Part shown: positions 6,582 through 29,351 of the stretch, in pieces
Position numbering within the stretch: position 1 is the first letter of the stretch
Layout: each line of letters starts with the position of its first letter
Source: Fidelibacterota bacterium MT.SAG.2
GTDB taxonomy: Bacteria > Fidelibacterota > SORT01
DNA: 64,000 bases
Direction: 5' to 3'
NCBI GenBank assembly: GCA_004402915.1
Contig: SORU01000002.1
Location: 1 to 64,000 of the forward strand
Notes under the pieces: generated by a model
The model's input: only the letters and a program-made list of their open reading frames with translations
The model's database searches: none
What the model was told of the DNA's origin: nothing
Translations under genes and position numbers: made by a program

Positions 6582-6667
6582 TGTCATTACGAGGAGCGAA
6601 ACGACGAAGTAATCTCAGAAATGTTCTGAGGATAAAATGAGATTGCCACGCTTCGCTCGCAATGACG
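6582..6667. repeat. REP-like repeat, TCATTACGAGGAGCGAAACGACG type
   Basis: The unit starts TCATTACGAGGAGCGA and ends TCGCTCGCAATGACGG, so the two arms are inverted copies around a short centre containing two GAGATT-type segments. It closely matches the copy at 8592-8686. It follows the stop of the ATPase gene and may fold as a transcript-end hairpin, though no T-run follows. Confidence 0.75.
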
Positions 6668-24759: not shown

Positions 24760-25691
24760 TAGATGAACCACTCCTCAAATCCTACCAACTTCAGTTCGAG
24801 CTCGAGTTTCACTCCGAACTTGTCTTGAACCGTCTTCTGAGCAAGAGCGATCAGATGCATCACATCTTCCGCTTTCGCTTTCCCGACATTAACAATGAAA
24901 TTCGCGTGTTTATCGGAAATCATCGCACCGCCCGCGCGTGTTCCCTTCAACCCCGCATCCTCGATAAGTTTGCCTGCCGAATCGCCTTCTTCCGGATTCT
25001 TGAAGATACTGCCCGTGGAGGGGAGGGTGACCGGTTGTTTTACGTTACGCTCTTTAACTATATCCCTTGAACTTCCGTAAAGCTCGGACGCGTCTTCAAC
25101 CTGCTCCAACTCGAACTCCGACTCTAAAATGATGGCTCCTTCGGGAAGGTTGGATTCTCTGTATTCAAATTGAAGTTCTATCGCCCGAAGTTCCAAGAAT
25201 TCCCCGTTTTCCAACAAAAGACTGAGCGATTTCAGTCTCTGGGATATCTCCGAACCGAAAGCGCCTGCATTCATGAACAGAGCGCCGCCGAGGGAGCCGG
25301 GAATACCGGCAAGTTTCTCTACGCCCGCAAGGTTGTGTTTTCGGCAGGTAGAGACAAACCGCGCAAGACTCACGCCCGATTGCGCCTTGACTATATTGCC
25401 TTCGACCTCGATCGAGTTGAACCCTCTTTTGAGGTCTATTATCAATCCTTGGTAGCCTTTGTCGTGCACGAGGATATTGCTTCCGCCGCCTAAATTGAAG
25501 TGCGGAAGATCATGCTCGGAAGCGAACTCCATGAGCGTTTTCACATCGTCCTTATCAGCGGGAAGAGCATAGATATAAGCCGGACCGCCGATATTATAAG
25601 TAGTATGCTCCGACATCGGCGTGTTATATATCAGCTCGCCTTTCACCGAGTTCTCGAGTTCCCGAAGTTCCTGATCGTTAACTAATTGCAT
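24759..25691 (-). CDS. murB: UDP-N-acetylenolpyruvoylglucosamine reductase (MurB)
   Basis: It reduces UDP-GlcNAc-enolpyruvate to UDP-MurNAc using FAD and NADPH. The 310-residue protein shows the FAD-binding HTTYNIGG and GGGSNILVHD near residues 26 and 65. The GIPGSLGGALFMNAGAFG segment is near 128, and SIFKNPE with the active-site Ser is near 228. It appears to be the short type II form, lacking the extra C-terminal domain of the E. coli enzyme. It overlaps murC by 14 bases. Confidence 0.96.
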   Translation of the reverse strand: MQLVNDQELRELENSVKGELIYNTPMSEHTTYNIGGPAYIYALPADKDDVKTLMEFASEHDLPHFNLGGGSNILVHDKGYQGLIIDLKRGFNSIEVEGNIVKAQSGVSLARFVSTCRKHNLAGVEKLAGIPGSLGGALFMNAGAFGSEISQRLKSLSLLLENGEFLELRAIELQFEYRESNLPEGAIILESEFELEQVEDASELYGSSRDIVKERNVKQPVTLPSTGSIFKNPEEGDSAGKLIEDAGLKGTRAGGAMISDKHANFIVNVGKAKAEDVMHLIALAQKTVQDKFGVKLELELKLVGFEEWFI

Positions 25692-27081
25692 CTTTATCCG
25701 CTGTCTCTAATTTTTGTATGAACTCTTCCCCTATCTTAAAGATATCGCCGGCGCCGATGGTGATTATCATATCGCCTTCGGTCGCAAACTCCATCAAAAA
25801 ATCTGCTATCTTCTCTTTTTCAGGGAGATAATGAACCTCTTTATGTCCCGAACTTTTCACCGCATCGGCGATCAATTTACCCGTAACTCCTTCGATGGGA
25901 GCTTCCCGGGCGGGATAGACGTCCGTGATTATCACCACATCCGCATGATTGAAAGAGCTGCCGAATTCATCTTTGAAATCTCTCGTCCGTGAATAGAGAT
26001 GAGGCTGAAACACCGCTATTACCCGCCTGTCCCATCCGGTCTGCGCGGCGGAGAGCGAACTCTTCACCTCCGTGGGATGATGAGCGTAATCGTCCACTAT
26101 CATCATACCGGCTATCCGTTTTTTGATCTCGAAGCGACGGCGTACACCTTCAAATTCGCTCAACGCTTTCGCAACGGTATCAAAGGGGATATCAAGTTCA
26201 AACGAAAGGGCGATAACGCCGAGAGCGTTCTTCACGTTATGAACGCCCGGCAGACGCAAACGAATTTCGCCTAAGTCATCCCCGTCGTTAATAAGATTGA
26301 ATCTGCTTTCACCCGAATCATAACTAATGTTGACCGCCCTGACCTCGGCGCTTTCGTCGAGACCGTATGTGATTATCCGTTTCTTAATGTCGGGAAGGAT
26401 CTCTCTGAGGTGCTGTTCGTCGATACAGGCGATTACCGCTCCGTAAAAGGGAACTCTCGAAGCAAATGTGATGAAAGTGTTTTTGATGTCATCCAAGTCT
26501 TTGTAAATATCGAGATGCTCTATCTCGATATTCGTGATAATAGCTATGGTAGGGGAGAGGGTGAGGAATGAACGGTCAAATTCATCCGCTTCCGCCACGA
26601 TATAGTCGCCATCGCCGAGCCGCGCATTGGTGGCTAAGCTCCGTACGACCCCGCCGACGATAATTGTCGGATCGAGTCCGGCTTCCGTCATGACCATACC
26701 TGCTATCGAAGTGGTAGTGGTCTTTCCATGCGTTCCAGCCACCGCCACCGCATACGGTTTGAGTCGGACGAGTTCCGCGAGCATCTCCGCCCTGCGGATC
26801 ACCGGGATCCCCTTCTCATTTGCGGCTACGATTTCAGGGTTATCGTTTTTCACAGCGGAGGAATGCACAACCACGTCTGCGCTGCCGATGTTTTCGGCTG
26901 AATGACCTATAAAGATCCTGCCTCCCATCTTCTGCAAATTCCGGGTTATGTCCGTTTCGGTCATATCCGAACCGGAAACTGTGTATCCCTGATTCAATAG
27001 AAGCTCGGCAAGACCGCTCATGCCGATGCCGCCGACTCCGATAAAGTGCAGATGGTTTGTATGTCCCAATTTTACCATCAT
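25678..27081 (-). CDS. murC: UDP-N-acetylmuramate-L-alanine ligase (MurC)
   Basis: It adds L-alanine to UDP-MurNAc, the first peptide step of peptidoglycan synthesis. The 467-residue protein has FIGVGGIGMSGLAELL at the start, the ATP-binding GTHGKTTTTS near residue 117, and DDYAHHPTEV near 335. The start overlaps the murG stop (ATGATG), so either of two adjacent ATG codons can be used. Confidence 0.97.
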   Translation of the reverse strand: MMVKLGHTNHLHFIGVGGIGMSGLAELLLNQGYTVSGSDMTETDITRNLQKMGGRIFIGHSAENIGSADVVVHSSAVKNDNPEIVAANEKGIPVIRRAEMLAELVRLKPYAVAVAGTHGKTTTTSIAGMVMTEAGLDPTIIVGGVVRSLATNARLGDGDYIVAEADEFDRSFLTLSPTIAIITNIEIEHLDIYKDLDDIKNTFITFASRVPFYGAVIACIDEQHLREILPDIKKRIITYGLDESAEVRAVNISYDSGESRFNLINDGDDLGEIRLRLPGVHNVKNALGVIALSFELDIPFDTVAKALSEFEGVRRRFEIKKRIAGMMIVDDYAHHPTEVKSSLSAAQTGWDRRVIAVFQPHLYSRTRDFKDEFGSSFNHADVVIITDVYPAREAPIEGVTGKLIADAVKSSGHKEVHYLPEKEKIADFLMEFATEGDMIITIGAGDIFKIGEEFIQKLETADKDAIS

Positions 27082-28204
27082 GCCTTTGCCAATTCGATCA
27101 TCTTGAAGAGCGAGTTGATTATTTTCAAAGCTGAGTCTTCATGAGCCACCGCCTTGCCTGCCTTTGACATCTCTTTCAGTTTCCAATCGTCGAACAAAAG
27201 CTCGAAGAGAACCTTCTCCAATTTTCCCGAGGATAACTCTTCCTGATTTATCACTAAAGCGGCGCCGGCATCTGCCATGAGCTTCGCGTTATAATCCTGA
27301 TGCTTCTCCGCCGCATGAGGGAGAGGGATAAGAATGGATGGAAGACCGACAGCGGCGAGTTCCGCAATGGTCAGCGCGCCTGCTCTGCAAACGGCTAAAT
27401 CGGCGGAGAAATATGCGCCCGCCATATTAGAGAGGAAGGGGAGTATCTTAACGTTCTCCCGTTCTCCAACCTCTTTGATTATCTTCTGATAATCGTTCGT
27501 ACCCGTCTGCCAGAGAAGTTGCAGCTCAGGACGACCTGTGTATTTTTCCAAATTCTCCAATATGTGCATGTTTATTGGTCGGGAGCCTTGACTGCCGCCG
27601 AAAATAAGCAGAGTTCGTTTTCCTTCGGAGAGACCGTACGACTTTGAAGTGAGCGTTTTTGCTCTCCTGAGCAGTTCGCCTCTTATCGGATTTCCGCTAA
27701 TTCCCATATTCAAACTTTTTTTTTTAAGTATTTTGTGCATTCTTCATAACTCAGCTCAATTCGGTCGACCCTGCCTGCCAATAATCGCGTAGTCAGACCC
27801 GGGTAAGAGTTCTGCTCGTGAATCAGTGTCGGAATGCCCAACAAGGTCGCAACATAAAGGGGAGGACCGGAAACGAAACCACCGGTGCCGATAACGGCGT
27901 CAGGTTTCTGTCTCATAAGGAACCAGAACGATTGAGCCGTCGCAATCACCAACTTGAAGGGAATCAATAGATTCTTGAGAATAGTTAAAAATAAATTATT
28001 CTCCCTGCTTATTCCCGAAATCCATATCGGCAGGAAATCGAAATCACTGTCGGGGATTATCTTTCCTTCGATCCCCTTTTTAGTTCCGATAAATTTTATC
28101 ACTGCCGACTTTTGCACTAATTTGAGCCGTTCGGCGATGGCGAGAGCGGGAAATAGATGACCGCCTGTGCCGCCTCCCGCAAAAATGACCTTTAGAGCTT
28201 TCAT
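27078..28204 (-). pseudogene. murG: MurG, frameshifted at an A10 tract
   Basis: MurG transfers GlcNAc to lipid I to form lipid II at the inner membrane face. The gene is read in two frames. The N-terminal part (27710-28204) has FAGGGTGGHLFPALA and IHEQNSYPG. The C-terminal part (from about 27725 to 27078) has the donor-binding GGSQGSRPIN, CRAGALTIAELAAVGLPSILIPLPHAAEKHQDYNA. The frames meet at ten consecutive A residues (minus strand, 27725-27716). One extra A would give an intact product of about 375 residues, the normal size. murG is essential and single here, so likely explanations are a sequencing error or slippage on the A10 tract rather than true loss. Confidence 0.88.
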
Positions 28205-28205
28205 T

Positions 28206-29351
28206 TCAGTTAGAACTCCTGTTATATCTCTTTTTTATATTCTTAGTTGAGGATGAAATATTCAGTATCACGCCGACCGAGCCGAGTGTATAGAGAACGT
28301 TTGAACCTCCGTAACTGACAAGCGGAATCGGTAATCCCGTTACCGGAAGCAGTCCTGAGACGACAGCAGCGTTAACTACCGCATAAAGAAATATCGAGCT
28401 GGCGAGTCCGACAGCGAGATAGAGTCCGAAACTGTCTTTGGAGGATTTCGCTACCTTTAACGATCTAAAAAAGAACATCAGAAACAGTGTTGAGATAGCC
28501 AACACACCTAAGAAGCCCATCTCCTCGCCGATTATGGCAAGTATGAAATCGGTATGTGGAGTAGGAAGGAAGAGGTTCTTGCTTATGCTCTCACCCAATC
28601 CTATTCCGAGAAAACCGCCGCCGCCGAGGCTCATCATCGACTGCTGCATCTGATAGCCCGCACCGGACAGGTCCCCGCCCTTGAAATATGATTCTATCCT
28701 CGCTATCTGATAACTGGAACCGAATAGAGAGAGGAGCATCAAAAGGCTGCCGACAGAGCCTATTGCGAAAAGATGGCTTATCCGCGCGTTACCAATGAAC
28801 AGCATGATGAATACGACCGTAACCAGTATGGCGGTTGTGCTGAAATCAGGCTGTTTCAATATCAGTAATGACGATATGCCGATCACGATGACCATCGGCA
28901 GGAGTCCGTCATTGAAGGAGTTCATTTTGTCCTTCTTCTTTTCGAGGTAATATGCAATGTAAGTGATAAGCGAGAACTTCATCAGCTCGGAAGTCTGCAC
29001 GCTTATCCCGCTGATATATATCCAGCGTGCCGTGGTACCCGTTCCCCAAAAACGATGGTGTATCAGACCGGCGAGTAAAACTATCGCCGCGATGACTAAT
29101 AGCGGGAATGCGATCTTTTTATAAAGTCTGTAATCTATATGCATTGTCAGGGCAAGCACTCCGAAGCCTATAAGCAGCCGCACGAAATGACCCTTCAGAT
29201 AGATGGCGCTGTCGCCCAGCTCTCTGCCGATAGCGGAGCTTGCGCTGTAAAGCATCACCATGCCTGTTCCCGCGATCAGCACGATAATGAACAGAAGCTG
29301 TTTATCGTAATCTCCTAAACGGAAAGGGATATATGAAACTATCTGGTTCAT
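28206..29351 (-). CDS. ftsW: Peptidoglycan glycosyltransferase FtsW
   Basis: A SEDS-family polytopic membrane protein that polymerises lipid II at the division septum. The 381-residue protein has about ten hydrophobic segments and family motifs such as KLxxI-type QTSELMKF near residue 119, KQPDFSTTAILV near 163, and LPLVSYGGSNVLYTLGSVG-like sequence near the C-terminus. It overlaps murD by 4 bases (ATGA) and lies one base from murG. Confidence 0.96.
   Translation of the reverse strand: MNQIVSYIPFRLGDYDKQLLFIIVLIAGTGMVMLYSASSAIGRELGDSAIYLKGHFVRLLIGFGVLALTMHIDYRLYKKIAFPLLVIAAIVLLAGLIHHRFWGTGTTARWIYISGISVQTSELMKFSLITYIAYYLEKKKDKMNSFNDGLLPMVIVIGISSLLILKQPDFSTTAILVTVVFIMLFIGNARISHLFAIGSVGSLLMLLSLFGSSYQIARIESYFKGGDLSGAGYQMQQSMMSLGGGGFLGIGLGESISKNLFLPTPHTDFILAIIGEEMGFLGVLAISTLFLMFFFRSLKVAKSSKDSFGLYLAVGLASSIFLYAVVNAAVVSGLLPVTGLPIPLVSYGGSNVLYTLGSVGVILNISSSTKNIKKRYNRSSN

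Follow-up and report, generated by a model that had tools for sequence, protein, structure and literature searches.

A frame break at an adenine run in murG, conserved across families of Neomarinimicrobiota and probably bypassed by transcriptional slippage

How does a bacterium obtain MurG, a cell-wall enzyme whose single-copy gene is regarded as essential, when that gene is broken into two reading frames? The question is raised by a 64,000-nucleotide stretch of DNA from Fidelibacterota bacterium MT.SAG.2 (GenBank assembly GCA_004402915.1, contig SORU01000002.1, positions 1 to 64,000; hereafter the window), in which murG consists of two open reading frames (ORFs) that meet at ten consecutive adenines. 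The most likely reading of the comparative sequence evidence is that murG is functional and has a frameshift built into it, and that full-length MurG is likely made despite the split.

The frame break and its conservation

Both ORFs lie on the minus strand. ORF1 (27710-28204; 164 amino acids) carries the start codon and the N-terminal Glyco_transf_28 domain (PF03033; E 1.5e-32), and ORF2 (27078-27740; 220 amino acids), in the -1 frame, holds the remainder of MurG with the C-terminal Glyco_tran_28_C domain (PF04101; E 2.7e-43); the ATG at 27740 is a mechanical ORF2 start, unsupported as a translation start. On the coding strand the junction reads TAC TTA AAA AAA AAA GTT TGA: the zero frame passes through the A10 run (27716-27725; T10 on the plus strand), which is the proposed slippage run, and ends at a TGA (27710-27712), while MurG continues in the -1 frame. 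The read-through protein aligns along its whole length with solved MurG structures (3s2u, 6.3e-53; 7d1i, 1.4e-52; 1f0k, 5.5e-46), which together with the two domains identifies it as MurG of the GT28 family; the frame break falls near the boundary between the domains. The original prediction, made from the window alone, held that murG is two ORFs meeting at an A10 tract and that one added A would rejoin a normal protein, and both statements were borne out.

With the read-through MurG as the query, 224 of 245 Neomarinimicrobiota genomes, mostly drafts, were matched, and our survey covers that phylum. In 37 genomes (including that of MT.SAG.2, here G000), which represent 10 families and 16 genera, the murG frame breaks at the same codons. 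In every one of the 37 the shift is into the -1 frame, and the run is uninterrupted (A9 in 9 genes, A10 in 26, A11 in 2), reads exactly three zero-frame AAA codons and lies ~20-27 nucleotides before the codons of the GNP(V/I)R motif. Among 106 intact murG genes checked, 96 have no run of nine or more As at the site and 10 have an A9 or A10 that is read in frame; murG is split in 37 of 47 genes with a run versus 0 of 96 without one. The in-frame runs belong to G004, G014 and eight species of genus g28 in family f11 (L082, L084, L087, L088, L090-L092, and L094). Conservation of the site across the phylum is beyond what could be seen in the window itself, and it emerged from the kind of comparison with sister genomes that the original prediction had called for. 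A different kind of break was seen in one small f6 genome (G086:C2:129829-130873; L076), where murG is in three pieces with stops and without an A run, perhaps through decay or poor assembly.

In a tree of 143 MurG sequences, computed with the junction columns left out, at least nine changes are needed to account for the split, which is common to whole clades (f1 with f7; f9/f17/f20/f28; genera g15 and g46 of f11; genus g24 of f14), the number of origins being approximate because the tree is of a quick type and has some long branches. The split persists between genomes separated by 1 to 3 synonymous substitutions per site (dS) and by tens of percent in amino acid sequence. The intact murG genes of G004 and G014 are nested within split groups and still have the run: it is A10 in G014, versus A9 in its congener G104, and G004 has one extra base right after the run compared with G003. 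That both retain A10 is as expected if slippage buffers the frame.

In the window, murG sits between ftsW (28206-29351, minus strand) and an intact murC (25678-27081, minus strand) downstream. The murG stop (TGA, 27080-27078) and the murC start (ATG, 27081-27079) overlap as ATGA at 27078-27081, and translational coupling of the two genes is possible; murG frameshifting could influence murC translation through this overlap. Used as a control, murC is in one frame in nearly all split-murG genomes; it has a gap in G145 and ends at a contig edge in G108. The match in G145 (G145:C70:8055-8402) is in two pieces with a gap at query positions 264-362, which could reflect a frameshift or a local misassembly. 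The murD gene is split at an A10, also in the -1 direction, in both f7 genomes (L173, G010:C11:112000-114600; L174, G015:C85:9700-12400), 2.5 kb upstream of their split murG; wherever murD is listed for the remaining split-murG genomes, it has an open reading frame of full length.

Selection on the gene and on the run

Both murG halves are under purifying selection: between pairs of split genomes, the ratio of nonsynonymous to synonymous substitutions (dN/dS) is 0.03-0.33 in each half, dS reaching 1-3 in several of the pairs. These ratios reject a pseudogene, and neither relaxed selection nor motif decay was found. Another copy of murG, one of the explanations offered by the original prediction and, if intact, one of the findings it named as refuting, was likewise rejected: a second Glyco_tran_28_C match is absent from G000, a genome that is 66.65% complete, and near-complete split relatives contain the two murG pieces only. 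An ORF2 translated from a start of its own was rejected as well. In 28 of the 37 split genomes, the ORF2 frame contains neither ATG nor GTG nor TTG over the 75 nucleotides that precede the GNP motif; because these usual starts are missing near the junction, the two frames must be fused during expression.

The run itself also appears to be maintained. All three of its lysine codons are AAA in 15 lineages (log10 P ~ -8.8), and the other lysine codons of split murG genes are 43-85% AAA. Of the 96 intact MurG proteins without a run, just one has KKK close to the site, so MurG can do without this sequence. Elsewhere in the genome, selection against long A or T runs, which is a mark of functional transcriptional slippage, was found. 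The run at 27716-27725 is the sole A10/T10 word in the 1,694,984 bases of G000, versus ~22-43 A10 words expected under Markov models extrapolated from the 64-kb window (Poisson P ~5e-9), and there are 13 A9 words, two of them belonging to the murG run, versus ~72-129 expected (Poisson P ~1e-17). These counts, far below expectation, indicate that G000 avoids long A runs, and its longest one falls exactly at the murG frame break. Other genomes of the survey contain A runs of more than 50 (G069:C18:7638-7690 and C23:35190-35244) or several hundred A10 words (G121), some at contig ends, which are possible assembly or adapter artefacts.

Slippage and the alternative explanations

We propose that RNA polymerase slips on the A9-A11 run of murG, such that a share of the transcripts would gain one A (or lose two). 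Slipped transcripts would join ORF1 to ORF2 and give full-length MurG; unslipped transcripts would give only the N-terminal domain followed by 1 to 45 further codons. We consider it probable that slippage adding one A is the source of full-length MurG, and prefer it over ribosomal -1 frameshifting on several grounds: every run has at least nine As, the length at which bacterial slippage is known (PMC1088944, PMC5009743); long A runs are avoided genome-wide; the genes are always one A short, which fits a polymerase whose slips are chiefly additions of A (PMC4256274, PMC5009743); and stimulators of ribosomal frameshifting were not seen. From this pattern we infer that it is the polymerase, not the ribosome, that slips, at a rate that would leave a reduced or tuned dose of MurG which is tolerated or useful. 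Of the explanations first put forward for the split, slippage is thereby supported.

Some points weigh against this explanation. The P values given above overstate the evidence and serve as guides only, since independence does not hold among the lineages or among related genomes. A run can be present without a split, as the in-frame A9 and A10 of genus g28 demonstrate. Ribosomal -1 slippage at A_AAA_AAA, which is always in phase, predicts the same frame. In the g28 genes, polymerase slippage at the in-frame run would yield a truncated product, as it does in Thermus dnaX.

The alternative that survives best accepts polymerase slippage and questions its purpose: slippage on nine or more As may make the genomic frame nearly irrelevant, so that the split was never selected. 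We regard this neutral buffering as a serious possibility, somewhat short of an even chance, and the probability assigned to it overlaps that of our preferred explanation because the molecular mechanism is identical. It is consistent with G004 and G014, which are intact within split clades and have kept the run, and with a parallel case in Blochmannia (PMC3017870). It is also consistent with the variable position of the zero-frame stop, 1 to 45 codons beyond the run, so that the short product is not obviously conserved. Speaking against it, the run is retained over deep branches despite the avoidance of such runs by these genomes. Moreover, in the six genomes whose coding sites with nine or more A or T were examined (G000, G003, G004, G031, G103 and G105), ~21 other sites are in frame and five of the six have a split murG, which suggests that there is something special about murG. 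The only other out-of-frame candidate among the A9/T9 coding sites of the six is an IS3-type element in G000 (L172, G000:C37), in which an A9 run (6657-6665) marks the junction between transposase orfA and orfB, the latter in the +1 frame.

In programmed -1 ribosomal frameshifting, tandem lysyl-tRNAs on A_AAA_AAA would re-pair one base back, taking the ribosome into ORF2. The direction of the shift fits this, and the slippery heptamer A_AAA_AAA is in phase with the zero frame in 37 of 37 split genes; ribosomes are able to slip on A runs, and many bacterial dnaX genes use ribosomal frameshifting (PMC5009743). Seven As would suffice, yet all runs have at least nine, and A_AAA_AAG, the best-known slippery heptamer of bacteria and far more shift-prone than A_AAA_AAA in Escherichia coli (PMC5009743), is in phase in 0 of 37. 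Neither an upstream Shine-Dalgarno-like motif nor downstream structure, the stimulators of such frameshifting, was found: the motif is present in the tested interval in 0 of 36 split genes, and downstream folding is not in excess (z -0.35 in split versus -0.12 in intact genes, p 0.21, with pseudoknots outside the model). We consider ribosomal frameshifting unlikely.

A more ambitious version of polymerase slippage would make it a regulatory device, whose rate would determine how much full-length MurG is made relative to the N-terminal domain and, in this genus, how much murC is translated via the ATGA overlap, thereby tuning peptidoglycan synthesis in a phylum that retains this site and clears such runs elsewhere. 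As judged from sequence, we offer this only tentatively and think it rather doubtful.

It is very improbable that ORF2 is translated alone and that two separate polypeptides assemble as a split MurG. A break near the two-domain boundary would suit such an arrangement, as would the ATG or GTG found near the junction in the ORF2 frame of f1 genomes; the shortage of start codons in most split genomes speaks against it, and it leaves both the constant A9-A11 at the junction and the constant -1 shift unexplained. Least probable of all is an assembly or homopolymer read error hiding an in-frame murG, also among the explanations first offered: homopolymers are prone to errors, but the same codons are broken in the same direction at runs of 9, 10 or 11 in 37 separately assembled genomes of 10 families, which rules it out in practice, and intact genomes have A9 or A10 read in frame, murC of split genomes is nearly always in one frame, and no frame break was seen at the other A9+ coding sites of five relatives.

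Significance and relation to known systems

If our interpretation is true, recoding would be needed throughout much of a phylum for the expression of a single-copy gene that is considered essential to building the cell wall. Automated annotation will probably label a split murG as a pseudogene or as two fragments, and such mislabelling distorts pathway assignments and completeness estimates in a group that is largely uncultivated. The genes also form a natural series (A9, A10 and A11, in and out of frame, together with the murD of one family) that could help to distinguish slippage as a selected control from slippage as a tolerated accident. A literature search, made mostly without subscription papers, returned no report of murG recoding or of frameshifting in Marinimicrobia, and the main texts of PMC3711429 and PMC1088944 do not mention murG. 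Slippage at A9-A11 is already known; what is notable here is its proposed use by a single-copy cell-wall gene, conserved across families.

Among the known systems, dnaX of Thermus thermophilus is a cellular gene with an A9 run at which transcriptional slippage, at about 50%, produces mRNAs of mixed length and from them two products (PMC1088944, PMC5009743). The murG case resembles it in having an A9-type run within a cellular gene and differs in direction: the long dnaX product is in the genomic frame and slippage gives the short one, whereas the long, enzymatic product of murG needs the slip. Closer in this respect is tssM1 of Citrobacter rodentium, in which a premature stop follows an A11 run and an added A, in 20-25%, restores the full-length protein (PMC4256274); tssM1 is a secretion gene, whereas murG is a single-copy cell-wall gene split in 10 families. 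Insertion sequence elements with slippage at nine As share with murG the conserved overlapping ORFs joined at an A9 (PMC1088944), and they are mobile elements rather than housekeeping genes. In the insect endosymbionts Blochmannia and Buchnera, indels in A runs, some of them in genes essential in E. coli, are thought to be rescued by slippage (PMC3017870). Those genomes are AT-rich, and each carries more than 100 long A runs in coding sequence along with several frameshifted genes; G000, in contrast, has one A10 in its genome, at a split that is conserved across families.
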